Below, piece by piece: positions 13,511-46,993 of a stretch of DNA of 64,000 nt. Below the pieces are notes generated by a model. That model saw only the letters and a program-made list of their open reading frames with translations. It had not been told where the DNA came from and did not search any database. The position numbers and the translations under genes are program-made. Origin of the DNA: Promethearchaeota archaeon (lineage in GTDB: Archaea; Asgardarchaeota; Lokiarchaeia; Sigyniarchaeales; SOKP01); contig JAEOTS010000025.1 of NCBI GenBank assembly GCA_016839745.1, positions 1 through 64,000 of the forward strand, given 5' to 3'. Numbering within the stretch: the stretch's first letter is position 1; each line of letters starts with the position of its first letter.

Positions 13511-14653
13511 TTACTTTTTAATGGATTCTAAAACATAATCTGTTATGTATTTAATTTCTTTATCTGATTGAGTTTTATAATTTACATATCTAAAATTAAA
13601 AATGCATAATGGACAAGATGATGCGATCTCCTTAGTTTGGGTTTTTTCAAATATTTTTTTCCCAATTTTTATACTAATACTACTATCAACACCTCTAATT
13701 CCAGATCCAGCCCCACAACAAGGACAATCGTTATGATCCTCTGCTAGCTCTTTTACTTCTATTCCACATTTTCTTAATAACGCTCTAGGTTCTGTATATA
13801 GAGGTCCGCTCTTATATTTTCTTCCAAGTCTGCAAGGATCGTGATATGTAACGGATTTATTTAAAGGCGTTAAGTCAATTTTTTTCTTGTTTTCTAATTC
13901 ATAAATAACATCAATAATGTGCCTTACATTTATATCATAATCTTTTAAATAAAGAGAGTAAACTTTATCGAAAGCATATAGACATCCACCGCAAGTAACG
14001 ATTAAATTTTTTATTCCATTAGATTTAAAGAGTTCCAAATTCGTTTGAAATACTTTTTTGGCGAGACCTAAATTACCTGCTGAATATATATATTCTCCAC
14101 AGCACGGTTCACTTTTAAAAATCTTAAAATCGTAATTACACTCCTTTAGGATTTTATAAGCTGCGCTCGCACTCTCTTTTACCCGAAAGGAGGACATACA
14201 TCCTAAAAACAATAATGTATCTGAATCTTTTTTTTCGTAAACTTCTTCATCTCTATATTCTTCAGGTAACCAATCTAAGCGCTCATCTGGATTTCCATTT
14301 ACAGAATTATCCTTTTCTATAATGTCTTTAATGATTTTTTTATGAATAGATAAAGGAGCTTTATTCTGCTCAACTAATTCCATTTTAGAGGAATGAATTA
14401 TTTCAGATATCAAAATATTTTGTTGACATACTAAATCACATAGAGCGCACAAAGTACACGTATATAATCCGATAATTTCTTCTTCAGATATTTCTTTATT
14501 TGTAAATATCTTTTCAGCAATTTTTAATCTCCCGTTCGGAGATTTTAATACATCATTTGATACCATAAAGGTATCACAATATTCCATACATGTTTTGCAA
14601 TCTATACAAGCATCAATATTTTGAATAATATTATTCTTATCCATTTTTTTCAT
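13511..14653 (-). CDS. HdrD/GlpC-type Fe-S oxidoreductase (4Fe-4S plus CCG domains)
   Basis: CIDCKTCMEYCDTF, CTLCALCDLVCQQN, EPCCGEY, CPCCGAGSG, SSCPLCIFNF. Confidence 0.88.
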   Translation of the reverse strand: MKKMDKNNIIQNIDACIDCKTCMEYCDTFMVSNDVLKSPNGRLKIAEKIFTNKEISEEEIIGLYTCTLCALCDLVCQQNILISEIIHSSKMELVEQNKAPLSIHKKIIKDIIEKDNSVNGNPDERLDWLPEEYRDEEVYEKKDSDTLLFLGCMSSFRVKESASAAYKILKECNYDFKIFKSEPCCGEYIYSAGNLGLAKKVFQTNLELFKSNGIKNLIVTCGGCLYAFDKVYSLYLKDYDINVRHIIDVIYELENKKKIDLTPLNKSVTYHDPCRLGRKYKSGPLYTEPRALLRKCGIEVKELAEDHNDCPCCGAGSGIRGVDSSISIKIGKKIFEKTQTKEIASSCPLCIFNFRYVNYKTQSDKEIKYITDYVLESIKK

Positions 14654-14860
14654 CTATACCTTCGTATATTATTTTAGAAGAACGGTTTTCCTAGATAAAT
14701 TTAAGAAATACTTTATAGTTAATTATCGAGGTGAATATCAAAACATCATCTTTTCCTTTAAATTATAAGTAAAAAAGTTATTTTTAACGAAATAAATATA
14801 TATTCAAAAATATTCAATTTACTGAAAATTTCCAATAAATAAATTAAAAAAGGTGAGAAA

Positions 14861-15445
14861 ATGAAAAAGACAGTAGAAAACTTATTTGCCGCGTTCTTGG
14901 GAGAATCTCAAGCGAGGAACAGATATACTTTGTTTTCAAAAATTGCTAAAAAAGAAGGATATATTCTTATTTCAAAGGTATTTGAGGAGACTGCAAATCA
15001 AGAAAGGGAACATGGTGGTTGGAATTATAAAATGCTCCAAGACCTTAAGAAGGAAGAGAAATTCGGAGAATTAGAGATAAAGGCTGGTGGTCCTACTACT
15101 TATGGAACCACAGAAGAAAATCTAAAATCGGCTATTGCGGGTGAAGATTACGAGTGGCAGGAAATGTATCCTGGTTTCGCTGATATCGCAGAAAAGGAAG
15201 GATATCCAGAAATAGCTAAGAGATTTCGAGCTATTGCCTCCGCAGAAAAACATCATTCAGAGAGATATGGCAAATTGTTAAAGTTAGTAGGCGACGATAT
15301 CTTCTTTAAACGAGGAGATAAAGTAGTATGGATATGCCTTGAATGTGGTTACCAAGTTGAATTAGATAAGCTTCCAGAAGACTTTGAATGTCCAAGCTGT
15401 TCACATCCAAGAAGTTATTTCAGAAAAAGATGCGAAGACTACTAA
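14861..15445 (+). CDS. Rubrerythrin
   Basis: [28 protein letters not shown]-terminal rubredoxin-like CLECGY...CPSCSH. Confidence 0.95.
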
Positions 15446-16018: not shown

Positions 16019-17377
16019 ATGTTATTATTACTCCAAATTATTGTCTTATGTTGTTTTATTATTGTAATTATTGCTCTTTTTAGAGAGAAATCTGATTTTC
16101 TTTATTATTCTATGGTAGCTATGTTAGTTTCAGCAGCAGCTACTTTTTTATTATCTCCCGGTGTTTCGACCGAAGAAGTTTTTCTTGCTGTAGATTGGGA
16201 GGTTATATTTTTCTTAGTTTCTTTATTTACAATTGTTGCGATTCTAGAAGAACAATGCATATTTCAGGAAGTCGCGAGAAGGATTACGACGAAATTTAGT
16301 ACTAATACGCGAAAATTTTTCTGGGTGATATGTCTTATTTCTACTATAAGTGCTGCGTTCATTGAAGATATCAGCGTCGCAGTTATATTTGTTCCAATGA
16401 TAATTAGCACCAGTCAAAAGATGAAAATTAATCCCGCTCCAATACTATTGGGTATGACTATTTGCATCAATCTTGCGTCTACTTTAACTCCATTTGGTTC
16501 TGCACAGAATATTTTAATAGCAAATCATTTTGCTCTTTCATCCACATGGTTTTTTACTAATCTTAGTATTTATTTCATTGTAGGTACACTGTCTACACTT
16601 TTTTTACTTGATAGATTTATATTAAAGAAACATCTAGGCGATATATGGATCCCACACTGTGAAGAAAACGAGGAACCGCAAGAAATTGAACATTACGAGG
16701 ATCATGAACTAGTAATCCTAGAAGAACCAATAGATAAAAAAATATTTTATCGAAACATTATTGGACTAGCTATTTTTTTCATTTTGTTAATTTTTATTCA
16801 AAACATTTTGTTTGTTGGTTTATTAGGTATGCTTCTTTTTGTGTTTATAAATCCAAGATTCAATACTGCAGGAAAGAAAAAACCCGATATTTCCTTTTAT
16901 TTAACGAAAGTAGATTTCAAATTAATATTTTTTTTTATAAGCCTTTTTGTATTAATATTTTCGTTTGAGAAAGCAGGGATAATCACCCTGTTGGAGAATT
17001 TTGTGTTAGCTATAACCCCATCTAATTTATTTTTATTATGTGTTATGATACTAGTTATTACCTCTGTTCTCTCGGGTTTGCTTGATAACGTACCTGTTAC
17101 AATTCTATTCATTCCAATTATAGAGGTCTTGACGGAACCTCCCGTTGCATTTTCCACTATTCCTATGCTGATAGCTTTTATATTAGGGATTAACTTAGGA
17201 GGAAATATCTTACCTCAAGGTTCAGCAGCAGATATGATGACCTTAGAACTCTCAAAGAGATATTGTGCTGATGATTTAAATTATAAAAGGTTATTAAAAG
17301 TGGGAGGGTTATTCGCAATATATCATATTATATTAGGGATTGGTTATTTAGCTTTGATGATATTCTTCTTTTTTTAA
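16019..17377 (+). CDS. ArsB/NhaD (ion transporter superfamily) membrane transporter
   Basis: Multiple TM segments, SAFIEDISVAVIFVPM, GLLDNVPVTILFIPI, LGGNILPQGSAADM. Confidence 0.85.
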   Translation: MLLLLQIIVLCCFIIVIIALFREKSDFLYYSMVAMLVSAAATFLLSPGVSTEEVFLAVDWEVIFFLVSLFTIVAILEEQCIFQEVARRITTKFSTNTRKFFWVICLISTISAAFIEDISVAVIFVPMIISTSQKMKINPAPILLGMTICINLASTLTPFGSAQNILIANHFALSSTWFFTNLSIYFIVGTLSTLFLLDRFILKKHLGDIWIPHCEENEEPQEIEHYEDHELVILEEPIDKKIFYRNIIGLAIFFILLIFIQNILFVGLLGMLLFVFINPRFNTAGKKKPDISFYLTKVDFKLIFFFISLFVLIFSFEKAGIITLLENFVLAITPSNLFLLCVMILVITSVLSGLLDNVPVTILFIPIIEVLTEPPVAFSTIPMLIAFILGINLGGNILPQGSAADMMTLELSKRYCADDLNYKRLLKVGGLFAIYHIILGIGYLALMIFFFF

Positions 17378-17379
17378 TC

Positions 17380-18222
17380 TTAAGCTAGAATCTCAAAATT
17401 TAGAGATTCTAATTTTAAATATTTGTTATAAATTTGTTGAGGATCACCAACAAACATCTTTTTGAATTGTGGTTTTAAAAATAAATTAAGTAATCCCGCA
17501 ATAATCCTCTTAAAAATCCCTATTCTAGTGTCGTAATAATATTGCTTATCATCTTCTAACCATCCTTGTTCAAACCAATAATTATAATCGGCATTAGTTT
17601 CATCCCTTGCAATATTATGCAGTGCTTTCCTCACTTTAAATCCAAGAACACCTCCTAAGCTTGGTTTTTGATATCTCTGACCATTTAATGCCTTTAAGAA
17701 TATTTTGCATGTTTTCTTAATTTTCTTAACAATTTTTGTTTCTGCTCCTTCAATGGGCATCGTCCGTATCTCTAATCGATGTACGAAATTAAATCCCCAA
17801 GAGTTAGCTACTTGATTGAAATAGTTTGTAACCTTCTTCGCATCAGCAATACCACAATTACAAACACCAATTGCGATTTTTCCGAAAAAACAAGGTCTGT
17901 GGAAAATGTAGGATAACCTGTCAAAAAAATTTTTCATAAGAGCAGGAATGTGCAAGGCATAAGCGGGAGCCATGAAAATTACACCATTAGCTTGATCAAT
18001 CTTATTGAAGATTATATCGCGATCGTCTTTTCCTACTGGGCATTTATCTTCACCTTTAAAAAAGCAGTTATGACACCCTCTACATTGTTCTAGATGAACA
18101 TCTTTAAGATATAAATATTCGAACTCAACTTCCTGAAGCAATTTTAGTTGATATTCTAGTTGTTGCATTATCATGGTCCCATAACCCTTTCTAGGACCAC
18201 CCATTATAGCTAAGATTCTCAT
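17380..18222 (-). CDS. NADPH-dependent FMN reductase / flavodoxin-fold protein with cysteine motif
   Basis: MRILAIMGGPRKGYGTM; CRGCHNCFFKGEDKCPVGKDD. Confidence 0.85.
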   Translation of the reverse strand: MRILAIMGGPRKGYGTMIMQQLEYQLKLLQEVEFEYLYLKDVHLEQCRGCHNCFFKGEDKCPVGKDDRDIIFNKIDQANGVIFMAPAYALHIPALMKNFFDRLSYIFHRPCFFGKIAIGVCNCGIADAKKVTNYFNQVANSWGFNFVHRLEIRTMPIEGAETKIVKKIKKTCKIFLKALNGQRYQKPSLGGVLGFKVRKALHNIARDETNADYNYWFEQGWLEDDKQYYYDTRIGIFKRIIAGLLNLFLKPQFKKMFVGDPQQIYNKYLKLESLNFEILA

Positions 18223-23562: not shown

Positions 23563-24285
23563 TTGGATTTAATTACTACTTATTTAAGTTTTCCTTATGA
23601 AAAAATTGATGATGCGAATAGAATATTCATAGAAACAGTACAGAAAAATCTGATAGATCCTGATTTATTCGAAAAAAAACCCATACAACCAGTGATGATA
23701 TGGTATTCAGAAGATTATGTTATAATTACTTCTATACTTGAAGTGAAGGAAGGTAAGCTTAAAGAGGCTTTTAATTTTCTTGATATTAGAAAAAAGTGGT
23801 GGCCTCTAGAGGAAGGGTATAAAGTAGATGCTTGGGTGTCACCTCAAAGTGGAAAAACAAGGCCTACTTTTTTTGGAGAAAAGTATTTGATCTTTGTAAG
23901 CTACGCAACAAAAGATGCTCAAACCTTTAAAATTAATGAATTCGCCAAAAAATTAAAAGGCTTTCCAGAAATTAAGAAAGTTCTTTATTGGCAGGAACAT
24001 ATGCAGGATAACATCTTTAAGTTTATGAATGATAATCTAGGAAAATGTGACATAATGTTGTTATTTTGTTCAAAGAACGCGCTAAACTCCAAACCTGTTG
24101 AGAAGGAATGGACAGCAGCCGAAGCAATTGGTGTTCCAATTATTCCAATATTTATTGATACAGATCATATTCCTCCCCTTCTTAAATCAAGATTAGGTAT
24201 TGAATATGATATTAATGATATAGATAAAAATATTCGAGATTTGCGTACTTTAATCTTAAAAAAGATTAAAGGAGTATCAGACTAA
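23563..24285 (+). CDS. TIR-like domain protein with unknown N-terminal domain
   Basis: YLIFVSYATKDAQTFKINEFAKKL...VLYWQEHMQDNIFKFMNDNLGKCDIMLLFCSKNALNSKPVEKEWTAAEA; similar to the TIR region of the 3619-aa protein. TTG start. Confidence 0.8.
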   Translation: MDLITTYLSFPYEKIDDANRIFIETVQKNLIDPDLFEKKPIQPVMIWYSEDYVIITSILEVKEGKLKEAFNFLDIRKKWWPLEEGYKVDAWVSPQSGKTRPTFFGEKYLIFVSYATKDAQTFKINEFAKKLKGFPEIKKVLYWQEHMQDNIFKFMNDNLGKCDIMLLFCSKNALNSKPVEKEWTAAEAIGVPIIPIFIDTDHIPPLLKSRLGIEYDINDIDKNIRDLRTLILKKIKGVSD

Positions 24286-31570: not shown

Positions 31571-34500
31571 TTATTTAAAGAATTTGTTGCCTCTTGACCG
31601 CATAATCTCTTGATAAAGATTCTTGATAAAAATATTAAATTGTTTTTTATCATATTTAACATTCAAGAAGTGTCCTAATATGGTTGGAATGTCATCCAAT
31701 TTTTCATAAACAGGAATAATTGTAATTAAATCCTTTTTCCTTTTTTCGAATGCTACTTGCCATTCATCTTTTACAGAAGCTGATTTCATAGAATTTTCAC
31801 TACAAAATAACACAAATACATCATATTCTTTGAGCGTTTCATCCATAAATTCCGTATAATCTGCAACTTTTTGTGCTTTATCCGATTCCCAATACATTAC
31901 TTTATCAATCTCTGGGTATTCTTCTAAACTTTTTATAACACTTAAAATTTGGAAGTGATCAATATCCAGAGTAGAATAACTTATGAAAATATTAAGCTCT
32001 TTGAATTTCTCAGGCAATAATTTAGAAACTATAGCTTTTGGTTTTATTTCTTGAGAGCGAACTTCTTCTAATAGAAGGTCCGAATCATCCCTGTCAAGAT
32101 TTAGCATCTCCCATTCTCTATAAATTTTTATGAATTGTTTAATTTGTTCGATATTCGATTGTTTGTCAAAAGCAACTGCTTTCGATTTTGAAAAGTATTC
32201 ACCATTAATCTCATTATTTTGAATCATTTCTTGTAAGACTTCAATAATGAAATCATCATCACTTATTCCAGTTTGTTCACTAATGTCAGTTATTTCTAAT
32301 CTCGCAAATTTTGTAGCTAAATTTAAAACAATTCTTTTTATTATATTAATCATTTCTAAATGTTTACTATTACATTGAGTGATTTTTTCATCACATTCGT
32401 TTAACATTTCGAATAGACCATATACTTTGCATAAATCTTTGATTTCTTCAAGGTCTTTCAGTGCATCTTTTACACTTTTTTCCTCTATCAGATGATCAAC
32501 AGTTAACAACCTATTATGAAGTTTTTGTTCGATTTTAATTTTCTTTTTGTCATATACTTTTATTTCTCTTCCTTTTTTTGGAATAATTACTCTCTTCCGA
32601 ACAACTACGAAACTTACTCCAGCTATACTAATTATACTAACAACAGTCATAATGATTACAATTAAATAATCTGGTTTCGTTATTACAGTATTTCCTTGAA
32701 ATGTATTTCCAAAACTATCTTCCTCAACATAAGCTTCATCATTTAAGTAGAAATAATTTTCAGTTATTGAATTATTGTTAGATTGTTTAAAGAATAATCC
32801 GAATTGATTACTTCCTAGGAAACTTCCACTGATGATGTTACTGTGACTCAATAATAGATAAATACCCCAACGGTTATAACTTATTGTTTCTGTATTGTTT
32901 ATAATGGAAATCAAACGACTTTCATTCAAGAAAATACCCGCTAACTTATTATGGTTCATATTACTTTCTAATATCGTGATATTCTCACAATCGTATAAAC
33001 ATACTCCATGTCCATTATTATTCGAGCAATCCAGATTAATTAATATAGCATTAGAAACATGCTCTAATTTAAGTCCTGCATCATTAAATCCTCCACCTGA
33101 GTTATGTAAAATACTATATCTTACAATGAAAAACGCAATAGAATTTCTAATTATTAAATTACTTCCAGTATTCTGACCATCAATTACTAAAAATTCAATA
33201 ATATATGGATCATTCCAAGTGCCTGAACCAAAGCACCACTCTTGAGCTTCTGCTTGATCCCAAGTGTAATTACCTGCACCAGTATCGTCAATAGTAGTAG
33301 TTTCCAAAACAACATAATCTGGGACTTTTTTAATAGATACATTTTGATAGCCGATATTTCCTACCAAATCAGCAGCATAAAAATGAATAAAAATTGTTTC
33401 AATCGGACCAGTAATAAAATTATCCCAAAGCCCTTGATCTATCTTTCCTGTTAAATCTGAAAAAGTATAATTACCTGTTATATATGTATCGTTAGATAGG
33501 GAATACCATGTGAGATCTAAATTTCCCTCAGTGATAGAAAGATTAAATTCAGGACTACTTAGTTGAAATGTCTCGTCTAATATTGGATTATGAATTGTAA
33601 TCACTGGTATTTCGATATCTTTCCCAACCATTATATCCATAAAGCTTAAAGTCCCTAAAGTATTATTTGCGTAAAATCTTATTATTACTGTTCCGTTTCC
33701 TAGAGCATCCCATTCAGCCTGATCTATAGTACCATTAGCTATAAATGTAATATTTGTGAGTCCTCCATCAAGTGTATACCACATCGAATCTATGCCATTA
33801 ACATTAGATATTTCTACATTAAAAATCGGAGGATTGTACCTAAATAAACTATTAGTAATTGGTGTATTTATTAAAATGGTTGGACCTGATAAAATATCTT
33901 TCCTGACCACAATTGAATTGGAGGCTAGATTCCCTAGGGTGTCATTCCCATAGAAAGTGATTGTTACTGTTCCATTTACTTGAGCATCCCATTCTGTCTG
34001 GTCTATGGAGCCATTAGTTATAAATATAATATTTGTGAGCCCGCCATCAAGCGTATACCACATCGTGTCAATACCATTAATAGCAGTTATTATCACATTG
34101 AAATTTGGCGCAAGAATTCCAAAAAGTTCATTAAGAATTGGAGATATGATGAAGATGTTTGGCAATTGGATATCCTTCCTAACCACAACAGAATTAGAGG
34201 CTAAATTCCCAACGGTATCATTTGCATAGAAAGTTATAGTTACAGTACCATTTGCTTGATTATCCCATTCAATTGGATCTATGGTACCATTGATTGTAAA
34301 TGTAATATTTATGAACCCGCCATCAAGCGTGTACCACATCATATCCACACCATTGATATCCGAGATTTCTACATTAAAAGTGGGGGGGAGAGGTCCAAAG
34401 AGCTCATTTGGTATAGGTGAATTAATGGTAATATTCGGAATTTCGATATCTTTTCGAACTACTACGGAATTAGAAGCTATATTCCCTAAGGTATCGTTTG

Positions 34501-37500
34501 CGTAGAAAATTATGGTAACGGTTCCATTTGATAGAGCATCCCATTCTGTCTGATCAATTGTCCCATTAGTTATAAATGTAATATTGGTTATACCTCCATC
34601 AAGTGTATACCACATTGTATCTACAATATTAATAGCAGTTATTTCTACATTATAGTTCGGAGAAGTATACCCAAACAAGTTATTTGAAGCTGGAGTATTT
34701 ATTAAAATGGTTGGACCAGATAAAATATCTTTCCTAACTACTAAAGAATTGGAAGCTAGATTCCCTAGGGTGTCATTCCCATAGAAAGTGATGGTTACAG
34801 TTCCATTCCCTTGAGCATCCCATTCTGTCTGATCTATTGTTCCATTAGCTATAAATGTTATATTAGTTAAACCTCCATCAAGTGTATACCACATTGTATC
34901 TATTCCGTTGATATCCGAAATTTCCACAGTAAAATTTGGTGCAAGGGCTCCAAAGAGCTCGTTTGGAAGGGGGAAATTAATGATAATATTTGGTAATTCG
35001 ATATCCTTACGTACTACAACAGAACTAGAAGCTAAATTCCCAACGGTATCATTTGCATAGAATATGATGGTAAGAGTTCCATTTGATTGAGCATCCCATT
35101 CAGTCTGGTCTATGGTACCATTGGTTATAAATGTAACATTAGTTATACCTCCGTCAAGCGTATACCACATTGCACCTATTCCATTGATATCGGTAATTTC
35201 TACAGTAAAAGATGGCGCAAGAGATCCAAAGAGCTCATTTGGTAAAGGTGAAATAATGTTAATATTAGGAACTTCGATATCCTTCCGAACTACAACAGAA
35301 CTAGAGTCAAAATTTCCAATGGTATCATTAGCATAGAATGTGATGGTAACAGTCCCATTTGATTGAGCATCCCATTCTGTCTGATCAATGGTTCCATTGG
35401 TTATAAATGTAATATTCGTGAGCCCGCCATTAAGTGTATACCACATTGTATCTATTCCATTGATATCAGCAATTTCTACAGTAAAAGTTGGTGCAAGAGA
35501 TCCAAAGAGCTCATTTGGTAAAGGAGAAATAATAAAAATATTAGGAGCTTCGATATCCTTCCGAACTACAACAGAATTAAAGGCTAGATTTCCTAGGGTG
35601 TCATTCCCATAAAAAGTTATGGTTATGGTTCCATTCCCTTGAGCATCCCATTCGATCTGATCAATGTTCCCGTTAGCTATAAACGTGATATTTATGAGCC
35701 CGCCATCAAGTGTATACCACATCGTATCTATTCCGTTGATATCCGTAATTTCAACGTTAAAAGTTGGTGCGATAACTCCAAAGAGCTCATTAGGAAGAGG
35801 TGAATTTATGATAATATCTGGCAATTCGATATCTTTCCTAACAATTACAGAATTAGAAGCTAAATTCCCAATAGTATCATTTGCATAGAAATTGATCGTA
35901 ACGGTACCATTTACCCGATTATCCCATTCTGTCTGATCAATGGTCCCATTGGTTATAAATGTAATATTCGTGAGCCCGCCATCAAGTGTATACCACATTG
36001 TATCTATTCCATTGATATCCGAAATTTCTACTGAAAAAATTGGCGCCAGGGATCCAAAGAGCTCATTAGGAAGAGGTGAATTTATGAAAATATCTGGCAA
36101 TTCGATATCTTTCCTAACAATTACAGAATTAGAAGCTAAATTCCCAACGGTATCATTTGCATAGAATGTGATGGTAACAGTTCCATTTGATTGAGCATCC
36201 CATTCAGTCTGGTCTATAGTACCATTGGTTATAAATGTAATATTCGTGAGCCCGCCATCAAGTGTATACCACATTGTATCTATTCCGTTGATATCGGTAA
36301 TTTCCACAGTAAAGGTTGGTGCAAGAGATCCAAAAAGCTCATTTGGTAAAGGAGAAATAATAAAAATATTAGGAAGTTCGATATCTTTCAGAATTACAAC
36401 AGAATTAAAGGCTAGATTTCCTATGGTATCATTCGCATAAAAATTTATAGTTAGGGTGCCATTTCCTTGAGCATCCCATTCAGTCTGGTATATAGTACCA
36501 TTGGTTATAAATGTAATATTCGTGAGCCCGCCATCAAGTGTATACCACATTGTATCTATTCCGTTGATATCCGTTATTTCAACATTAAAAGTTGGTGCAA
36601 TAACTCCAAAGAGCTCATTTGGAAGAGGTGAATTTATGATAATATTTGGTAGTTCGATATCTTTCCTAACTGCTACTGAATTAAAGGCTAGGTTTCCAAT
36701 AGTATCATTTGCATAGAAAGTGATCGTAACGGTACCATTTACCCGATTATCCCATTCTGTCTGATCAATGGTTCCATTAGCAATAAATGTAATATTTGTG
36801 AGGCCTCCATCGAGTGTATACCACATCATATCTATTCCATTGATATCCGAAATTTCTACATCAAACGATGGCGCAAGAGACCCAAAGAGCTCATTTAGTA
36901 AAGGTGAATTAATATTTATATCTGGTATTTCGACGTCCTTCCGAACTACAACAGAATTAGAAGCTAAATTCCCAACGGTATCATTTGTATAGAAAATGAC
37001 GGTAATCGTTCCATTTACTTGATTATCCCATTCAATTTGGTCTATGGTACCATTGGTTATAAATGTAATATTAGTTAAACCTCCGTCAAGCGTGTACCAC
37101 ATTACATCTATTCCGTTGATATCAGTAATTTCCACAATATAAGTTGGCGTTAGGACTCCGAAAAGTTCATTTGATAAAGGAGAAATAATAATAATATCTG
37201 GCGCTACGATATCTTTCCTAACTAAAACAGCAGCAGAGGCCAGCTTTCCAAGTGTACCATTCACATAGAAAGTAATTAATACTGTTCCATTTGCTAATTT
37301 ATTCCATTCAATCTGATCAATAGTCCCATTAGCTATAAATGTAATATTTGTGAGACCACCATCAAGCGTATACCACATTGTATCTACGCCATCTGTATCG
37401 TTTATTTCTACATTAAAATTTGGAGAAGTGATCCCAAATAAACTGTTTGAAATCGGCGCATTTATTACAACAGTTGGAACCGATTCAATTCCATCATCCC

Positions 37501-40500
37501 ATATTGGAAAATTATCTTGACTTCCTGCGGTACCAGGTATTAAATATGGACTATCTCCTATTCCATCATCATTTGCATCTACTCCTCCATAATCATCCCA
37601 ATAATTACCAATAGTTCCATTATCCCAATCATTATTCGTTCCATTATCGAGTGCGTTGATACCATTTCCTATAATTAAATTATTAAAAATTAAAGAATAA
37701 TTAGCTTCTGTTAAAAAAAATCCATAATTAATAGTATTATTTATGGTGTTTCCCGAAATAACATTATCAATATTTTCGAATAAATATATTCCATAGAGGT
37801 CATAGTTATTTACTATATTATTCGAGATTATGTTACTACTACTATTAAGAAGTATTCCTATCCCAAAACCAGTTGGAAACCAGTTGGAATTAATGGTGTT
37901 TCCTGTAATACTGTTATTATTACTATACAATGAAACTATCCCAAAGTTGTTACTATTTAAGGTGTTTCCTGTAATGTTATTATTATTACACTCGCTTATC
38001 CATATACCATAATAGTTTCCTGAAATCGAGTTGTTTCCTGAAATTGAGTTATTTACACTCCTTCCCAGGTATATCCCACGAGAATTATTTGAACAATTGT
38101 TTCTTGTAGATAGTGAATTAGTAACATTAACCAATTCAATCCCCGCTCTTGTTGAATTGAATACAGTACAATTTTCAATTCTAAAATATACATCAGAATT
38201 TTCAATGTAAATACAACTAACCGAATTGTTTTGAGCATTAATTGCTAAATCTTCTATTACATAAGGATCCGAACTTGTACCCTGTCCAGTACACTTTCCT
38301 GCATCTTTAAAATATTGCCACTCTTGATTACCCTCTAAATAAATAGTCTGTGGAGCTATTGCACTGTCCTGTGTCACATCATAAAAGCTTAATATCCCCA
38401 ACGCATTCGATTGAAATCCAAGAATATGACTTCGATAGGCGTCATAATTATACGGAATACAACCATATGCCCATGGCATATCATCTTCAACTAAAAGTTG
38501 TTGGATTCTTTCGTAAAATACTTTCCTTGCATTTGGATCAGTTTCGAATAATGCTGCTTCCATTAAAAGCTGCACATTGGCCCAAGGATCAAATGGATCT
38601 CTACCCGCTCCCATTGCTGCTGTATAACCATTATATTGAACTCCATTATATGCGATAGATCTATTAGTGAAATGTGGGTTGATATAATTGCTTGGATCAA
38701 CATAATCAGGACCCCATCCCATCCAAAAGAGTTCCAGCATATTTCTTGTATAGGGAGGAATTTCAACCAATCTATAAAAATAATCCGTCCAGGTCATGCC
38801 CTCATCAGTAACTTCGATTCCTATTTTATCAAGATTATTTTGCAATAAAGGTAAAATATTTTCGCGAAGGGTGTTACCTATATTATAAGTATAATTGAAA
38901 GTGCGGAATGATGCGGCAGACCATAGAGCCTCATCCATTCCGGGGTAATTTGCGTCCCATCCTATTCCAAAGCCCATACTTTGCATGATTTCTCTAGCTT
39001 GTGTTATGTTGTATATTGCAACATCAAAGGACCAATTGGCGTAGGGCATATTTTCAGGTATAGGCGACTTTAATCTTACGGCATTTCCTCCATATAATTC
39101 ATCAATAATGTAAGAGTAGTTTATTGCATACGAAATTGCTTTTCGCCATGTATTATTAATAATTTGATTATTCATACCGAGATATTGAACAATCATGCTT
39201 TGTCCAGCGTTAAATAACGTAATATCGGGATCAGCATCAAAAGTTGAAAACATTGAAGTCAATGGATCAACCAGTAAGTCAACTTCACCTGATAACAGTG
39301 CGTTATTTCTGTCTACTGCATCTGGAATAATGGAAAATTTAAGGATGGAAACATTGGCTTTTCCTGCCCAGTAATTCTCAAAAGCGTGAAACTTTACTTC
39401 ATTATCAGGTAAATAATGATCATAAACAAACGGACCTGTCCCTATTAAATCACCTGTAGTGGTATTAATAGCTGCAAATTGAGGTGTAGATATAGGAGAT
39501 AGAATATATGAACCAGGAAAGCACAATAAATTATCAAATACACCATAAGGTTTATTCAACTCGAATCTAATTGTATATTCATCTACAATTACAGTATCGT
39601 TAATAATAGGAAAATACATACTAACATCAGGATCATAATATTGATAAAGTTCAGCCGCATAAGCCATAGTATTATTTATGAAGTATGCTAACCTATCAAA
39701 AGAAAATTTTACTGCAGTCGCGTTAAATTTAGTTCCATCGTGGAAAATTACATTAGACCTGAGAGAAACAGTGTACCATGTGTCTGTGGAATTGATCATC
39801 CATGTACCCATTGATGTTGCAAGATTTGGTATAACTGGTAAATTAGGATCCGATATTTTATATTTAAATAAACCCTCACACACTTGATATATTACATCAA
39901 ATGATACTGTATCATAAGCAACGTGAGGATCAAGATCAAATGGACCATAAGCAGTACCAAAAACAATTTTAAATATATCATCTCCTTGGTCGATCCCATC
40001 ATCCCAAATTGGAAAGTTATCTTGACTTACTGTTGGGCCAGATATTGGATAAGATGTATCCCCCATTCCGTCATCATTTTCATCTACTCCTGGATAATCA
40101 TCCCAAAAATTACCAAGACTTCCATTATCCCATGAATTGCTAATCAAACTTTCAAAAGCATTGATATTATTTGAGATAAATGAATTGTTATAAATTAGAA
40201 TGCTATTACTATTATTTACATTCATTCCATATTGAACATTATTATTTACATTATTACCAGTGATGGTAAAGTTGGTATTAAGATTGAATAGATGTATCCC
40301 TACGCCGTTATTTGAACAATTGTTCCCAATTATTTGTCCATTACTAGCATTTAGCAATTTAATTCCTGCATCTGCAGAATTAAATAATGTACAATTTTCA
40401 ATTCTAAAATATACCTCAGAATTTTCAATAAAAATACAACTAACAGATTCATTTTGGCCATCGATTACTAAATCTTCGATTACATAAGGATCAGAAATTG

Positions 40501-42430
40501 TGCCCTCTCCCGTGCATTTACTTGCGTTTTTAAAATATTGCCATTCTTGATTACCATCTAAATATATCGTTTGTGGGGCAATCGCACTATTTTGGGTAAC
40601 ACCACGAAAATCTAAAATTTCCATAGCGTTCGATTGAAATCCAAGAATACGGCTCCGATAGGCATCATAATTGCGCGTGACGAAACAAAATGCCCATGGC
40701 ATATCTTCTTCTACAAGAATTTCTTGAATCCTATTGTAATATGATTCTCTTATATTTTGATTGGTTTCGAATAATGCTGCTTCCATTAAAAGTTGTACAT
40801 TATCCCATAGATTAAACGGATCTCTACCAGATTCTATCGCTGCCCAATAGCCATTATACATACCATTATTCCAACTACTAAGATCAAGTGTTCTATTGGT
40901 TAACATACTATTGATATAATTACTTGGGTCATTATAGTCATGCCCCCAACCCATCCAGAAGAGTTGCAGCATCTTCCAGCCATCCACTCCTAAAATAAAC
41001 AATCTATCTAGATATTCTGACCAGGTCATACCAGCATCAGTAACTTCGATACCAATTTTATCAAGATTATTTTGTAATAAAGGTAAAATATCTTCTCGAA
41101 ATGAGTTGCCTATATTATAGGTATAATTGTAAGTCTCGAATGATGCGGCAGACCATAGAGCCTCATCACTTCCGGGATAAGTTGTATCCCAAGCTACTCC
41201 AAAACCCATACTTTGCATTATTTCTCTTGCTTTAGAAACATTATATGTTGCTACATCAAGCGACCAGTTAGCGAATATTATACTTTCAGGAAGAGGAGAC
41301 TCTAATCTCAGTGCGTTTCCTTCACGTAATTCATTAAGAATATAAGAATAGTTAATAGCATAAGAAATTGCGTTTCTAAAAGTAACATTGATATAATAAT
41401 TACTCATTACAAGAGGCGAAATTACTGTCCCCTGTCCAGCGTCAATTAACGTAATATCAGGATCAGCATCAAGAGTAGAAAACATTGAGGAATATGGATT
41501 AAGTATTAAGTCGACTTCACCTGATAACAATGCGTTGTTTCTGTCTACTGCATCTGGAATAATGGAAAATTTAAGGATTGTAATATTTGCTTTTCCTGCC
41601 CAATAATTCTCAAAAGCGTGAAATTTTACTTCATCATCGGGTATATAATGGTCATAAACAAACGGCCCTGTACCGACTAGAGTTCCAGTAGTGATATTAA
41701 TATACTCAAATTGAGGTGTAGATGTGGGAGATAAAATATATGATCCAGGAAAGCATAATAATGCCTCGAATGGTCCATATGGCTTATTCAACTCGAATCT
41801 AATTGTATATTCATCGATAATAACAGTGTCACTAATAATAGGGAAAGTAGTTCCGAGATCAGGATCAAAATATTCATAAAGTGTAGCTGCGGTAGCCATA
41901 GAATTATTTATAAAATATTTTAACCTTTCAAAAGTAAATTTTACTGCTGTTGCGTTAAATTTAGTTCCATCGTGAAAAATCACATTAGGTCGAAGGGACA
42001 CGGTATACCATGTGTCTGTAGAATTAATCATCCATGTACCTTTTGATGTTGCTAAACGGGGTATAATCTGTAAATTTTGATCGGTTAAATTGTATGTGAA
42101 TAAACCTTCGCAAACTTGATCTATCACATTATATGAATTAGAATCCCAAGAGTTTTGAGGATCAAGATCATATGGACCAGCCTGAGTACCAAATACTAAC
42201 TTAAATATATTATTATCTTGATTACTAGAGTTGAGATCTTTATCGTAAGAAATTAGTCCCTCTCTAGTTTTAGCATTTATATTTATATTCGAATTTATTA
42301 TGAAATTTGAAAAAAATATAATTAAGAGGAAAAATAAAATTAAAACTCGTTTTAATTTCTTATTGAATTTTATTGAATATGATTTACCTTTTATATTCCT
42401 ATATAGACGAATATTGACTTTGGATTTCAT
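31571..42430 (-). CDS. Giant surface receptor-like protein: N-terminal membrane segment, SBP_bac_5, NosD, SBP_bac_5, NosD, ~15 Ig-like repeats, NosD, TM, helical/wHTH linker, TIR-like domain
   Basis: SBP: FKLVFGTQAGPYDLDPQ...FHDGTKFNATAVKFTFERL (second copy FKIVFGTAYGPFDLDPH...); NosD/Asgard linker NYWDDYGGVDANDDGIGDSPYLIPG; TM LIVIIMTVVSIISIAGVSFVVV then positive charges; TIR ELNIFISYSTLDIDHF...YDVFVLFCSENSMKSASVKDEWQ. Confidence 0.9.
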   Translation of the reverse strand: MKSKVNIRLYRNIKGKSYSIKFNKKLKRVLILFFLLIIFFSNFIINSNININAKTREGLISYDKDLNSSNQDNNIFKLVFGTQAGPYDLDPQNSWDSNSYNVIDQVCEGLFTYNLTDQNLQIIPRLATSKGTWMINSTDTWYTVSLRPNVIFHDGTKFNATAVKFTFERLKYFINNSMATAATLYEYFDPDLGTTFPIISDTVIIDEYTIRFELNKPYGPFEALLCFPGSYILSPTSTPQFEYINITTGTLVGTGPFVYDHYIPDDEVKFHAFENYWAGKANITILKFSIIPDAVDRNNALLSGEVDLILNPYSSMFSTLDADPDITLIDAGQGTVISPLVMSNYYINVTFRNAISYAINYSYILNELREGNALRLESPLPESIIFANWSLDVATYNVSKAREIMQSMGFGVAWDTTYPGSDEALWSAASFETYNYTYNIGNSFREDILPLLQNNLDKIGIEVTDAGMTWSEYLDRLFILGVDGWKMLQLFWMGWGHDYNDPSNYINSMLTNRTLDLSSWNNGMYNGYWAAIESGRDPFNLWDNVQLLMEAALFETNQNIRESYYNRIQEILVEEDMPWAFCFVTRNYDAYRSRILGFQSNAMEILDFRGVTQNSAIAPQTIYLDGNQEWQYFKNASKCTGEGTISDPYVIEDLVIDGQNESVSCIFIENSEVYFRIENCTLFNSADAGIKLLNASNGQIIGNNCSNNGVGIHLFNLNTNFTITGNNVNNNVQYGMNVNNSNSILIYNNSFISNNINAFESLISNSWDNGSLGNFWDDYPGVDENDDGMGDTSYPISGPTVSQDNFPIWDDGIDQGDDIFKIVFGTAYGPFDLDPHVAYDTVSFDVIYQVCEGLFKYKISDPNLPVIPNLATSMGTWMINSTDTWYTVSLRSNVIFHDGTKFNATAVKFSFDRLAYFINNTMAYAAELYQYYDPDVSMYFPIINDTVIVDEYTIRFELNKPYGVFDNLLCFPGSYILSPISTPQFAAINTTTGDLIGTGPFVYDHYLPDNEVKFHAFENYWAGKANVSILKFSIIPDAVDRNNALLSGEVDLLVDPLTSMFSTFDADPDITLFNAGQSMIVQYLGMNNQIINNTWRKAISYAINYSYIIDELYGGNAVRLKSPIPENMPYANWSFDVAIYNITQAREIMQSMGFGIGWDANYPGMDEALWSAASFRTFNYTYNIGNTLRENILPLLQNNLDKIGIEVTDEGMTWTDYFYRLVEIPPYTRNMLELFWMGWGPDYVDPSNYINPHFTNRSIAYNGVQYNGYTAAMGAGRDPFDPWANVQLLMEAALFETDPNARKVFYERIQQLLVEDDMPWAYGCIPYNYDAYRSHILGFQSNALGILSFYDVTQDSAIAPQTIYLEGNQEWQYFKDAGKCTGQGTSSDPYVIEDLAINAQNNSVSCIYIENSDVYFRIENCTVFNSTRAGIELVNVTNSLSTRNNCSNNSRGIYLGRSVNNSISGNNSISGNYYGIWISECNNNNITGNTLNSNNFGIVSLYSNNNSITGNTINSNWFPTGFGIGILLNSSSNIISNNIVNNYDLYGIYLFENIDNVISGNTINNTINYGFFLTEANYSLIFNNLIIGNGINALDNGTNNDWDNGTIGNYWDDYGGVDANDDGIGDSPYLIPGTAGSQDNFPIWDDGIESVPTVVINAPISNSLFGITSPNFNVEINDTDGVDTMWYTLDGGLTNITFIANGTIDQIEWNKLANGTVLITFYVNGTLGKLASAAVLVRKDIVAPDIIIISPLSNELFGVLTPTYIVEITDINGIDVMWYTLDGGLTNITFITNGTIDQIEWDNQVNGTITVIFYTNDTVGNLASNSVVVRKDVEIPDININSPLLNELFGSLAPSFDVEISDINGIDMMWYTLDGGLTNITFIANGTIDQTEWDNRVNGTVTITFYANDTIGNLAFNSVAVRKDIELPNIIINSPLPNELFGVIAPTFNVEITDINGIDTMWYTLDGGLTNITFITNGTIYQTEWDAQGNGTLTINFYANDTIGNLAFNSVVILKDIELPNIFIISPLPNELFGSLAPTFTVEITDINGIDTMWYTLDGGLTNITFITNGTIDQTEWDAQSNGTVTITFYANDTVGNLASNSVIVRKDIELPDIFINSPLPNELFGSLAPIFSVEISDINGIDTMWYTLDGGLTNITFITNGTIDQTEWDNRVNGTVTINFYANDTIGNLASNSVIVRKDIELPDIIINSPLPNELFGVIAPTFNVEITDINGIDTMWYTLDGGLINITFIANGNIDQIEWDAQGNGTITITFYGNDTLGNLAFNSVVVRKDIEAPNIFIISPLPNELFGSLAPTFTVEIADINGIDTMWYTLNGGLTNITFITNGTIDQTEWDAQSNGTVTITFYANDTIGNFDSSSVVVRKDIEVPNINIISPLPNELFGSLAPSFTVEITDINGIGAMWYTLDGGITNVTFITNGTIDQTEWDAQSNGTLTIIFYANDTVGNLASSSVVVRKDIELPNIIINFPLPNELFGALAPNFTVEISDINGIDTMWYTLDGGLTNITFIANGTIDQTEWDAQGNGTVTITFYGNDTLGNLASNSLVVRKDILSGPTILINTPASNNLFGYTSPNYNVEITAINIVDTMWYTLDGGITNITFITNGTIDQTEWDALSNGTVTIIFYANDTLGNIASNSVVVRKDIEIPNITINSPIPNELFGPLPPTFNVEISDINGVDMMWYTLDGGFINITFTINGTIDPIEWDNQANGTVTITFYANDTVGNLASNSVVVRKDIQLPNIFIISPILNELFGILAPNFNVIITAINGIDTMWYTLDGGLTNIIFITNGSIDQTEWDAQVNGTVTITFYGNDTLGNLASNSIVVRKDILSGPTILINTPITNSLFRYNPPIFNVEISNVNGIDSMWYTLDGGLTNITFIANGTIDQAEWDALGNGTVIIRFYANNTLGTLSFMDIMVGKDIEIPVITIHNPILDETFQLSSPEFNLSITEGNLDLTWYSLSNDTYITGNYTFSDLTGKIDQGLWDNFITGPIETIFIHFYAADLVGNIGYQNVSIKKVPDYVVLETTTIDDTGAGNYTWDQAEAQEWCFGSGTWNDPYIIEFLVIDGQNTGSNLIIRNSIAFFIVRYSILHNSGGGFNDAGLKLEHVSNAILINLDCSNNNGHGVCLYDCENITILESNMNHNKLAGIFLNESRLISIINNTETISYNRWGIYLLLSHSNIISGSFLGSNQFGLFFKQSNNNSITENYFYLNDEAYVEEDSFGNTFQGNTVITKPDYLIVIIMTVVSIISIAGVSFVVVRKRVIIPKKGREIKVYDKKKIKIEQKLHNRLLTVDHLIEEKSVKDALKDLEEIKDLCKVYGLFEMLNECDEKITQCNSKHLEMINIIKRIVLNLATKFARLEITDISEQTGISDDDFIIEVLQEMIQNNEINGEYFSKSKAVAFDKQSNIEQIKQFIKIYREWEMLNLDRDDSDLLLEEVRSQEIKPKAIVSKLLPEKFKELNIFISYSTLDIDHFQILSVIKSLEEYPEIDKVMYWESDKAQKVADYTEFMDETLKEYDVFVLFCSENSMKSASVKDEWQVAFEKRKKDLITIIPVYEKLDDIPTILGHFLNVKYDKKQFNIFIKNLYQEIMRSRGNKFFK
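33330..37490 (-). repeat. Tandem 276-bp (92-aa) coding repeats, 14 clear plus 1 degenerate
   Basis: Unit P(N/D)I.I.SPLPNELFG.LAPTF.VEI.DINGIDTMWYTLDGGLTNITFITNGTIDQTEWDAQ.NGT.TI.FYANDT.GNLASNSVVVRKDIE; antisense ORFs at 34005, 34281, 35112, 35388, 35664, 35940 confirm a 276-bp period. Confidence 0.95.
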
Positions 42431-42512
42431 TTTATCAAATTATGTCTTTGTATAGAAAGAATTGAAGTCTTGGAATTCTTTTAGAATCAATATTAACTAA
42501 ATATATAATGAC

Positions 42513-42560
42513 TAATGATAAATAGGATGTTCATCTTTTTAAGACTTTATCTTTTTGACA
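42513..42560 (-). promoter_or_regulatory. Conserved upstream element of the giant TIR gene (paired with 44603-44650)
   Basis: taatgataaataggatgttcatctttttaagactttatctttttgaca; 45/48 identical to the element upstream of the 639-aa paralog. Confidence 0.5.
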
Positions 42561-42643
42561 TTTTATTCTAAATTTATTATTTTAAAAACGGTTATTGAAA
42601 TAACTTAAGAATCTAGTATATATTTTTAATAGAAACTTTATAT

Positions 42644-44563
42644 TTAAGCGATTATCTCGGGAATTCTTCTGCCCTTTGAGCGCATAATCTCCTGATAAAG
42701 TTCGGTGGTAAAACTATTAAAATCAGTTTTATCATATTTAACATTTAAAAAGTGACCTAATATTACTGGAATGTGTTCGGCTTGTTCATAAACTGGAATA
42801 ATTGTAACTAATCCCTTTTTCCTTCTCTGGAATGCTGCTTGCCACTCATCTCTTACAGAAACGGATTTCATGGAGTTTTCACTACAAAATAAAACAAACA
42901 CATCGCAATTTTCAAGCATTTTATCCATATATTCTACAATATTTTGTGTACTATCCGCCTCCCAATACATTACTTTGTTAATATCTGGGTATTCTTCTAA
43001 ACTTTTTGCAACTCGTGATATCTGAAAATGATCTGTATCTATAGTGGAATAACTTAAAAAGACATTAAGATCTTTGAATTCATCAGGTTTAGACTTAGAA
43101 ATTATTGCTTTCGATCTTAATTCCCGAGGTAGAATCTCTTCTATTAGAAAGTCCGAATCATCCCTATCAAGGTTATTTTTCTCCCATTCTCCGTACGTTT
43201 TTATGAGGTTCTCAATTTGTTCGATATTCGATTGTTGATCAAAATTAATTCTTTTTGAAAAGTATTCAGCATATACCTCATTATTTTGAATCATATCTTC
43301 TATAACTTCAATAATGAAATCTTCATCATTTATTCCAGTTTTTTCACTAATATCAGTTATTTCTAATCTCGCAAATTTAGTAGCTAAATTTATCACAATT
43401 CTTTTAATTATATTAATCATCTCTAAGTACAAATAATTACAATGTTCAATTTTTTCATCACAATCGTTTATCATTTCAAATAGACCATATACGTTGCATA
43501 AATCCTTAATCTCTTCCAGATTTTTGAGAGCCTCTTTTACATTTTTTTCCCTTATCAAGTAGTCAATAAAGGATAACCTATCATGAAGATTTTCTTCGAC
43601 TTTAATTTTTGTTTTTCCGTCTACTTTCACTTCTCCTCTTTTTTTAGGAATAATTACTCTCTTCCAAATAGTTAGGATACTTACAGCGGATACACCAACT
43701 ATAATAACGATAATTATAATGGTTAAAAGTAATACATTAAATTTCGGTATTATTTCATTATTTTTAAAACTATTATTTTGACTATCTTCAAGATCATAAG
43801 CTTCATTATTTTCCATAAAGATATTTTCAATTATAGAATTATTGCTCGATTGCTTAAGAAATAATCCTAATTGATTATATCCTATAAAGTTTCCACTGAT
43901 GTTGTTATTATGACTCATTAAGAGAAAAATACCCCTTACCTTATTATTGTTCAGATCACTTTCTAATATAGAAATATTCTGAGAGTTATCCAAACAAACC
44001 CCATGGTCTTTGTTGTTTGAGCAATCTATATTAATTAATTTACCATTTGAAACATTTACTAATTTAACTCCCGCATCATTAGCTCCTCCACCAGAATTAT
44101 AGAAAATACTATCTCTTATAATGAAAAACACACTAGAATTTCTAATTATTAAACAACTTGCACCATTCTGACCATCAATTTCTAAGGATTCAATAATATA
44201 AGGATCATTCCAAGTACCAGAGCCATTACACCATTCTTGAGCTTGTGCTTGAGTCCAAGTGTAATCTCCTTCTCCAGTATCGTCAATAATCATCGATTCT
44301 GAAATATAATTATCTGATACTTTAATAATAGAAACATCTTGAGATCCAATATCCTTATTATATGGCAATTGATTGAGTCTAATTGTGAAAATTAAGCAGA
44401 ATAATACCAAGATGAAAAATAGTAATGAAACTCTCTTTAAAGTTAAATTTTTATTTGAATTAATTGAAACTGAATTTTTACTTTTATCCTTAGAGACACT
44501 AGCATTAACTTTAGATTTCATTTTATCAAATTTGGTATTTGTGATAAAGGGATTAAAATCCAA
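42644..44563 (-). CDS. Short paralog of the giant receptor: NosD-like ectodomain, TM, helical/wHTH linker, TIR-like domain
   Basis: TYTWTQAQAQEWCNGSGTWNDPYIIE-type ectodomain, NVLLLTIIIIVIIVGVSAVSIL TM, DLNVFLSYSTIDTDHF...CDVFVLFCSENSMKSVSVRDEWQ. Internal ATG at 44521 aligns with the start of the giant protein (MKSKVN). Confidence 0.9.
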   Translation of the reverse strand: MDFNPFITNTKFDKMKSKVNASVSKDKSKNSVSINSNKNLTLKRVSLLFFILVLFCLIFTIRLNQLPYNKDIGSQDVSIIKVSDNYISESMIIDDTGEGDYTWTQAQAQEWCNGSGTWNDPYIIESLEIDGQNGASCLIIRNSSVFFIIRDSIFYNSGGGANDAGVKLVNVSNGKLINIDCSNNKDHGVCLDNSQNISILESDLNNNKVRGIFLLMSHNNNISGNFIGYNQLGLFLKQSSNNSIIENIFMENNEAYDLEDSQNNSFKNNEIIPKFNVLLLTIIIIVIIVGVSAVSILTIWKRVIIPKKRGEVKVDGKTKIKVEENLHDRLSFIDYLIREKNVKEALKNLEEIKDLCNVYGLFEMINDCDEKIEHCNYLYLEMINIIKRIVINLATKFARLEITDISEKTGINDEDFIIEVIEDMIQNNEVYAEYFSKRINFDQQSNIEQIENLIKTYGEWEKNNLDRDDSDFLIEEILPRELRSKAIISKSKPDEFKDLNVFLSYSTIDTDHFQISRVAKSLEEYPDINKVMYWEADSTQNIVEYMDKMLENCDVFVLFCSENSMKSVSVRDEWQAAFQRRKKGLVTIIPVYEQAEHIPVILGHFLNVKYDKTDFNSFTTELYQEIMRSKGRRIPEIIA

Positions 44564-45949: not shown

Positions 45950-46993
45950 TTATATCATTTTTTTTAACAACCAACGAATTGCATTGATAATTTTATCATT
46001 TTCATTAAGAACATTAATAGAGAAATATTCTATAGATAGTCCACACTCTTCTAACTCCACCATGTTGAATTTCTCATAAATCATATTCGAGGTTATTTCC
46101 TCTTTATCGTCAAATTTATTGCCAATAATAAGTATTGGCATAGTATCTCCCTTATCCTGGCATCTATTTAATACCAACTGGAACATTTCAATGGTTTCTT
46201 TAATAGAGTCCTTAGTAGAGGCATTAAAGATTAAGATAAAGCCCTGAGCATTATCTATACAATCTTCATACAAACTAGTTCGTTCATCATCCGTATCCTC
46301 ATCAATACATTCGTACGTCAAAACTTCGATGTTATCAATTATGAAGTCGTAAATTTTGCTAGATAAATCTCGCTTCATATTGTTATTTTTATATTGTAGG
46401 AATTGTATAACCTCCAAATTTTTAACGAGCTCTGTTTTTCCTGCGTTTCTAGGGCCAAAAATATAAATCTTCTTTAAATTTCCTTTATCTAATAAATGAG
46501 TCGTTAAATCTAGCTGTGGGCTCATTTTTTCTAGATATTTGTTGAAGAGCCTAAAGAATTCTTTTTTAAATTTTTTCGATGCTACGCTAAGAGTTTCTTT
46601 TTGATTTACACGATTTTTATGGTTGTGTAGTACTTCTTTGAGTTCTCGAAGATTTTTGAGTTCTGAAGCGTAAGATTCGAGATCAGGGGTTTTAGATAAC
46701 AAATAATTGTAAACATCAGTAATTTCGTCTTTGAAGTAAGCGGCTCTAATCATAAAAGTTATCATTAAGAGTTCTTTTCCCCCTCGCGCAAATTCTGAGT
46801 CAATATAAAAAATGTGATTAATGGTTTGATACTTCCTATAAGTAAAAATAAAATTTCCTTCTAGATCAGTGAAATCCAGAATTCTACCTAAATCGGGGTG
46901 CTCTTGGGTATTCAATGGGGAACTACAATACAAGTTAGTGGGTCCGAGAGTAGTGTCAAAATATGACACACAAAGGATAACCTCTTTTGGCAT
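45950..46993 (-). CDS. Ras/Arf-like small GTPase with N-terminal sensor-like domain (longin/roadblock type, tentative)
   Basis: P-loop GPRNAGKTE, G4 IGNKFD; N-term CVSYFDTTLGPTNLYCSSP. G3 region atypical. Confidence 0.75.
   Translation of the reverse strand: MPKEVILCVSYFDTTLGPTNLYCSSPLNTQEHPDLGRILDFTDLEGNFIFTYRKYQTINHIFYIDSEFARGGKELLMITFMIRAAYFKDEITDVYNYLLSKTPDLESYASELKNLRELKEVLHNHKNRVNQKETLSVASKKFKKEFFRLFNKYLEKMSPQLDLTTHLLDKGNLKKIYIFGPRNAGKTELVKNLEVIQFLQYKNNNMKRDLSSKIYDFIIDNIEVLTYECIDEDTDDERTSLYEDCIDNAQGFILIFNASTKDSIKETIEMFQLVLNRCQDKGDTMPILIIGNKFDDKEEITSNMIYEKFNMVELEECGLSIEYFSINVLNENDKIINAIRWLLKKMI

Follow-up and report, generated by a model that had tools for sequence, protein, structure and literature searches.

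The stretch of DNA analysed here (the window) comprises 64,000 nucleotides of contig JAEOTS010000025.1 from a Promethearchaeota archaeon, and it contains, on the minus strand, an open reading frame (ORF) that opens with ATG and runs through 3619 codons with 0 internal stops. The predicted product, hereafter the receptor, joins two solute-binding protein (SBP) domains of the SBP_bac_5 family, by way of beta-helices, a long stalk and one transmembrane (TM) helix, to a C-terminal TIR domain (Table 1). The overall observation made in a preliminary description of this DNA is confirmed: its coordinates and length for the ORF are correct (the strand had not been given), and the domain order that it proposed, i.e. 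SBP, beta-helix, SBP, beta-helix, stalk, beta-helix, TM helix, linker and TIR, is borne out by Pfam searches and hydropathy.

Table 1. Features of the receptor ORF and of the upstream paralog (positions in the window)
Feature	Position	Strand	Basis or remark
Whole receptor ORF, SBP-SBP-TM-TIR	31571..42430	-	3619 aa; ortholog in L044
N-terminal hydrophobic segment, aa 29-47	42290..42346	-	Hydropathy; basic N-terminus before, no lipobox Cys
SBP1, SBP_bac_5, aa 70-620	40571..42223	-	Pfam; phmmer to DppA/HpDppA, E 1e-30 to 1e-33
D498 (SBP1), aligned with DppA Asp408 (mature) / D436 (precursor)	40937..40939	-	Alignment
Beta-helix 1 (NosD/Beta_helix-like), aa 621-815	39986..40570	-	Pfam
SBP2, SBP_bac_5, aa 816-1361	38348..39985	-	Pfam, AlphaFold2, Foldseek; 71% identity to SBP1
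D1242 (SBP2), aligned with DppA Asp408	38705..38707	-	Alignment
Beta-helix 2, aa 1362-1650	37481..38347	-	Pfam
Stalk, aa 1651-3042: 14 92-aa repeats and one divergent repeat	33305..37480	-	Repeat analysis
Beta-helix 3, aa 3043-3252	32675..33304	-	Pfam
Single TM helix, within aa 3253-3278	32597..32674	-	Hydropathy; then basic RKRVIIPKK
Cytoplasmic helical linker, aa 3279-3472, PCI/winged-helix module at 3361-3422	32015..32596	-	Pfam, AlphaFold2
TIR domain, aa 3473-3616	31583..32014	-	Pfam, AlphaFold2, Foldseek
E3556, catalytic-glutamate position of TIR NADases	31763..31765	-	Alignment of 66 Lokiarchaeal TIRs
Upstream paralog: signal segment, beta-helix, TM, winged helix, TIR	42644..44521	-	625 aa from likely ATG

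The N-terminal membrane segment and the one TM helix were both recovered by hydropathy analysis, which showed nothing else than these two features (the helix at residues ~3253-3275); the first of them is predicted to be a signal sequence or an anchor. The part of the protein ahead of the TM helix carries 115 N-X-S/T sequons, while 54 are expected from shuffling (maximum 75 in 1000 shuffled sequences), and the cytosolic part following the helix carries 0. This confinement agrees with a topology in which the ectodomain lies outside the cell and the tail inside.

Both SBP domains are firmly identified. The SBP_bac_5 profile of Pfam matches the ORF with 443.6 bits over two stretches (cut-off 32.4), and the AlphaFold2 model of SBP2, built from a 28-sequence alignment (pLDDT 92.8, pTM 0.89), has the two-lobed fold of this family, with GbpA, Helicobacter DppA, E. 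coli DppA and AppA as Foldseek matches (GbpA/DppA at E ~1e-42). Besides sequence and fold, the receptor shares with DppA/OppA-type proteins the aspartate that in DppA anchors the peptide amine (Asp408 of the mature protein, D436 of the precursor), retained in both SBPs; this is the residue altered, in precursor numbering, in the solved DppA mutant 8z1z (R383D+D436R). In contrast, the arginine changed in the same ligand-site mutant is not conserved: the R383 position is occupied by E in SBP1, R in SBP2 and A in the ortholog described below, an assignment that is tentative, as the alignment is gappy there. Since this position differs, it is possible that the two SBPs have distinct specificities. 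The receptor also departs from DppA/OppA-type proteins in having two tandem SBP copies joined to a TM helix and a TIR domain, and in having no linked permease. As the preliminary description had indicated, no permease gene adjoins the ORF; a profile search of its contig (C144) revealed no BPD_transp_1 match, and hence no linkage to an ABC peptide transporter.

Other unusual SBP_bac_5 proteins were encountered among the Lokiarchaeal loci. They include a protein of 2754 aa that has four SBP_bac_5 domains in tandem but lacks a TIR (L104:2706-10967), an SBP_bac_5 domain fused to a beta-helix and to numerous repeats of Big_9/cadherin-like type (L105:2-5947), and an anchored 843-aa SBP_bac_5 protein without a permease (L086:4355-6883), near which the start of another ORF, FLAGAGCSI, reads as SIR2-like (L086:8751-10622).

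At the opposite end of the protein, the TIR domain that had been read from motifs is supported both by Pfam (TIR_2, 40.2 bits at residues 3481-3591, cut-off 28) and by its predicted fold. TIR is a signalling domain that also serves the immune systems of animals and plants. The AlphaFold2 model of the 362 cytoplasmic residues reached an overall pLDDT of 72 and a pTM of 0.41, with values of mostly 80-93 in the TIR part, and its Foldseek matches were nearly all TIRs: SPARTA first, followed by MyD88, MAL, Hydra TRR-2, TLR10 and AbTir (probability 1.00 for SPARTA, MyD88, MAL, TLR10 and AbTir). The position of the glutamate that is catalytic in TIR NADases is occupied by E in 65 of 66 distinct Lokiarchaeal TIR proteins, and in 25 of the 26 single-pass receptors among them; these proteins come from fetched loci, a sample biased toward receptor-like matches and long reading frames, so that counts drawn from it are not frequencies. 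SPARTA, Thoeris ThsB and TcpA are TIR NADases of bacterial or archaeal defence with which the receptor can be compared. The SPARTA TIR is its best fold match and the glutamate is common to both; however, these proteins are soluble and sense intracellular cues, unlike a membrane receptor. Membership of the receptor in Thoeris has no support, its PADLOC match to ThsB amounting to 14.1 bits only; no ThsA-type STALD partner was matched in the same genome, yet the controls of that search were equally silent.

The regions between the SBP and TIR domains were less faithfully described. Three beta-helix regions are indeed present (Pfam NosD 155.7 bits and Beta_helix 127.1 bits, four stretches each), but NosD proper is rejected, as the score against TIGR04247 is 139.9 bits with a cut-off of 300; they are right-handed beta-helices in the general sense only. 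The label Ig-like for the stalk is unsupported: a three-repeat stretch gave no Pfam match at E 10, and a profile of the repeats found no match better than E 0.48 among PDB sequences. The basic and helical linker is present as stated, with RKRVIIPKK following the TM helix and then a helical segment, to which our analysis adds a PCI-like/winged-helix module (PCI match of 24.2 bits when scanned alone and 17.7 in the full protein, cut-off 22). The same PCI model also matches an apparent AsnC-like regulator, and winged helix is therefore the safe name for this module. Unrelated Lokiarchaeal proteins with leucine-rich repeat (LRR), WD40, TPR or TM regions likewise end in such a module at the C-terminus (L121:1539-3002, L121:6762-7760, L122:1531-2814, L123:539-1822 and L125); those of L121 are encoded next to genes that, read by eye, appear to encode E1/ThiF-like and JAB/MPN-like proteins.

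The gene directly upstream of the receptor encodes a smaller paralog, whose ORF as listed extends to 639 aa from a TTG at 44563. It is 66% identical to the receptor across the C-terminal 355 residues, both proteins start with MKSKVN, and its TIR_2 match is 59.5 bits. The two genes recur in unchanged order in another Lokiarchaeal metagenome-assembled genome (MAG; G054, locus L044), where they encode a 649-aa beta-helix-TIR protein and a 1877-aa receptor ortholog with one SBP_bac_5 domain, beta-helices, about three repeats, a TM helix and a TIR domain. In comparison with this ortholog, the ratio of nonsynonymous to synonymous substitution (dN/dS) is 0.23-0.33 for SBP1, SBP2, two beta-helices, the linker and the TIR domain; purifying selection acts on all of the domains compared. 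That assembly or gene calling fused unrelated genes might be suspected from the state of the receptor's MAG (192 contigs, 5.76% contamination) and from the long repeat array in the middle of the ORF. However, the second MAG preserves both the domain order and the neighbouring gene, dN/dS is below 0.35 in all compared domains, the repeat copies show a third-position excess, and exact repeats within the ORF reach no more than 81 bp, so that only the copy number of the stalk repeats is doubtful. We therefore reject misassembly, and regard an artefact of either kind as very improbable.

DNA similarity to G054 is limited to the two-gene block, and the genomic context of the gene pair thus differs between G054 and the genome of the receptor. 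The proportion of synonymous differences (pS) from the ortholog is 0.48 in the SBP part and 0.25 in the TIR domain and linker, and the higher value may reflect recombination or exchange of the ectodomain. The end of the similarity at the gene pair (block 31571-44563), together with the doubled pS of the SBP part, suggests mobility or recombination of this block.

Relatives of the C-terminal region of the receptor were found in 56 of 227 genomes of the Asgard phylum, 55 of which belong to the same class; the named genomes are Lokiarchaeota or Lokiarchaeia, plus one Helarchaeote. The 66 TIR proteins comprise 26 single-pass proteins with a large ectodomain, 6 multi-TM proteins, 32 without a TM helix and 2 unclear cases. 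SBP-type ectodomains occur in several combinations (SBP_bac_5 in 4 proteins, Peripla_BP_6 in 8, both in 2), and beta-helix ectodomains are also found on single-pass proteins. Among these 66 proteins, SBP_bac_5 and TIR share one ORF, the combination that the preliminary description had proposed to look for in Asgard genomes, in the window receptor and its ortholog, which lack Peripla_BP_6, and in the proteins of two further genomes (L101, L102), which combine SBP_bac_5, Peripla_BP_6, TM and TIR; the latter bear a C-terminal extension of ~235 aa after the TIR domain and belong to a separate, well-supported TIR clade. Peripla_BP_6-TM-TIR proteins are encoded in L045, L046, L049 and L061 and by two tandem genes in L119. 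The beta-helix-TM-TIR and Peripla_BP_6-TM-TIR proteins of L045-L061 and L119 have the same topology as the receptor and related TIRs (related C-terminal regions are 31-53% identical where aligned, the direct ortholog and the paralog pair excluded), whereas their ectodomains differ from that of the receptor, and a subgroup (L101, L102, L119, L115) is extended past the TIR domain.

SBP-type domains have apparently been joined to TIR more than once. Their distribution on the TIR tree requires at least four label changes, and in a tree with unfused SBPs the TIR-fused SBP_bac_5 domains fall into two separate clades, a single clade being marginally rejected by the approximately unbiased (AU) test (p 0.046). 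The closest unfused SBPs are single-domain proteins of the same genus, and two of their loci (L141, L144) adjoin two permease-like genes and an ATPase gene. In the genome of the receptor, an SBP (L088) adjoins multi-TM genes coinciding with permease matches on contig C43. One could envisage a surface protein for nutrient capture or adhesion that feeds an Opp/Dpp permease in trans, with the TIR domain as a minor regulatory addition: at least three Opp/Dpp-type permease pairs are encoded on other contigs of the genome (C2, C43, C130), and many long membrane-anchored Lokiarchaeal SBP proteins that contain beta-helix or Ig/cadherin regions carry no TIR (L103-L114). We consider such a role unlikely, as purifying selection acts on the TIR domain just as on the remainder of the protein, the glutamate of this domain is retained, and SBP-type ectodomains, including those of a second SBP family, recur on TIR tails. 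The coupling of an extracellular SBP to a cytoplasmic TIR across one TM helix, as proposed in the preliminary description, is reinforced by the ortholog, by the further SBP-TIR and Peripla_BP_6-TIR fusions and by their Lokiarchaeal origin. The SBPs outside, the single TM helix, the TIR domain inside and the absence of an adjacent permease all stand; ligand sensing is a predicted role, and the recurrence of the fusions makes it the best reading.

The genome of the receptor contains seven TIR_2 matches, six of them outside the receptor ORF, and four of these six proteins have no predicted TM helix. The seven include WD40-TIR, helical-repeat (TPR-like) TIR and multi-TM TIR proteins (repeats read by eye). 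The four proteins without a TM helix could serve as adaptors of a scaffold receptor, whose ectodomains would bind a ligand and whose TIR domain would signal by TIR-TIR assembly in the manner of TLR-type TIRs, which act without enzymatic activity (PMC11249213), and the filament-forming TIRs of MyD88 and MAL are among the Foldseek matches. Signalling without NAD chemistry nevertheless seems rather unlikely to us, though less so than nutrient capture, given that the NADase glutamate is almost invariant in Lokiarchaeal TIRs, unlike in non-enzymatic TLR-type signalling.

Several other genes of the same contig and of related genomes deserve mention. The third TIR gene of the window (23563-24285) encodes a soluble protein of 240 aa whose tree neighbours are WD40-TIR and multi-TM TIR proteins, and positions 45950-46993 encode a Ras/Arf-like GTPase with ~170 additional N-terminal residues. 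On the receptor's contig beyond the window (L090) lies an apparent ubiquitin-like cluster (13883-14281, 14329-15114, 16139-16462 and 16551-17780), read by eye as two small ubiquitin-like ORFs along with genes for a TM protein whose tail is similar and for a protein resembling E1. In another genome (L062, G033:C38), at least four soluble TIR genes are clustered, and the C-terminal regions of two of them read as LRRs.

We think it probable that the ORF encodes a ligand-gated, single-pass cell-surface receptor whose TIR domain assembles into an NAD-cleaving signalling complex. SBP1 and SBP2, as Dpp-related venus-flytrap domains held on beta-helix and repeat stalks, would capture an extracellular peptide or amine-bearing molecule, and closure or clustering of the ectodomains would bring the cytoplasmic TIRs together. 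The complex thus formed would yield a nicotinamide/ADP-ribose-type product, deplete NAD or cleave NAD-capped RNA, while the winged-helix linker may act as a spacer or a partner-binding module. The domains, the topology signature, purifying selection, the conserved TIR glutamate and SBP aspartate, the ortholog and the recurrence of SBP-type ectodomains on TIR receptors are established by the data, whereas we infer that a ligand is bound, that it induces clustering, that the TIRs cleave NAD and that a response follows. An archaeal precedent exists in TcpA, which cleaves NAD+ and NAD-RNA via its glutamate (PMC10937652). Some points weigh against this proposal. A catalytic glutamate would by itself be no proof of NADase activity, because of two archaeal TIRs tested, one cleaved NAD+ and NAD-RNA and the other had no NAD-RNA activity (PMC10937652); the receptor SBPs could have lost binding or act in adhesion; the AU test for separate SBP-TIR fusions is borderline; and no cognate effector gene was recognised near the receptor. 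As to the purpose of a ligand-gated receptor, sequence cannot distinguish between defence, starvation sensing and partner sensing.

What is known of prokaryotic TIR proteins concerns chiefly soluble intracellular defence enzymes, and membrane TIR receptors of the Toll type are known chiefly as an animal feature. The Toll-like architecture suggested for the receptor holds as regards topology: Toll and Toll-like receptors (TIR groups 3, 7 and 29 of PMC7075850) likewise consist of an ectodomain, one TM helix and a cytoplasmic TIR, and the TIR fold of the receptor matches those of TLR10, Hydra TRR-2, MyD88 and MAL. It fails as regards the ectodomain, which is composed of SBP and beta-helix domains, a Pfam scan of the whole receptor having given no LRR match; direct homology to Toll-like receptors is rejected on this ground. 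The winged-helix linker and the retained NADase glutamate are further differences, and we found no evidence that the whole architecture shares descent with the eukaryotic Toll, in either direction. SBP-type sensor domains occur in bacterial receptors, sensor kinases and other proteins (PMC9602780), which similarly reuse the binding-protein fold as an extracellular sensor; in contrast to these, the output of the receptor is a TIR and not a kinase or methyl-accepting domain. No published SBP-TM-TIR protein or Asgard TIR receptor was found in the open-licence literature: in a survey of Asgard defence TIR appears only within system names (PMC11291487), and a survey of TIR proteins mentions neither Asgard archaea nor periplasmic ectodomains (PMC7075850).

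It is quite possible that the Lokiarchaeal receptors constitute a class of their own. More tentatively, it may be viewed as a family of modular membrane receptors in which interchangeable SBP_bac_5, Peripla_BP_6 and beta-helix sensors, alone or combined, control an NAD-cleaving TIR, i.e. an independently assembled prokaryotic counterpart of Toll-like receptors that converts peptide or small-molecule signals from outside the cell into NAD-derived messengers; we regard this broader proposal as possible, though short of probable. If it is true, diversified membrane TIR receptors exist in the archaea closest to eukaryotes, and the topology arose outside animals, with ectodomains derived from nutrient-binding proteins. 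The known folds on both sides of the membrane, peptide-binding outside and enzymatic inside, would make ligand gating concretely testable, and such receptors would bear on how Lokiarchaea sense peptides and their syntrophic partners.
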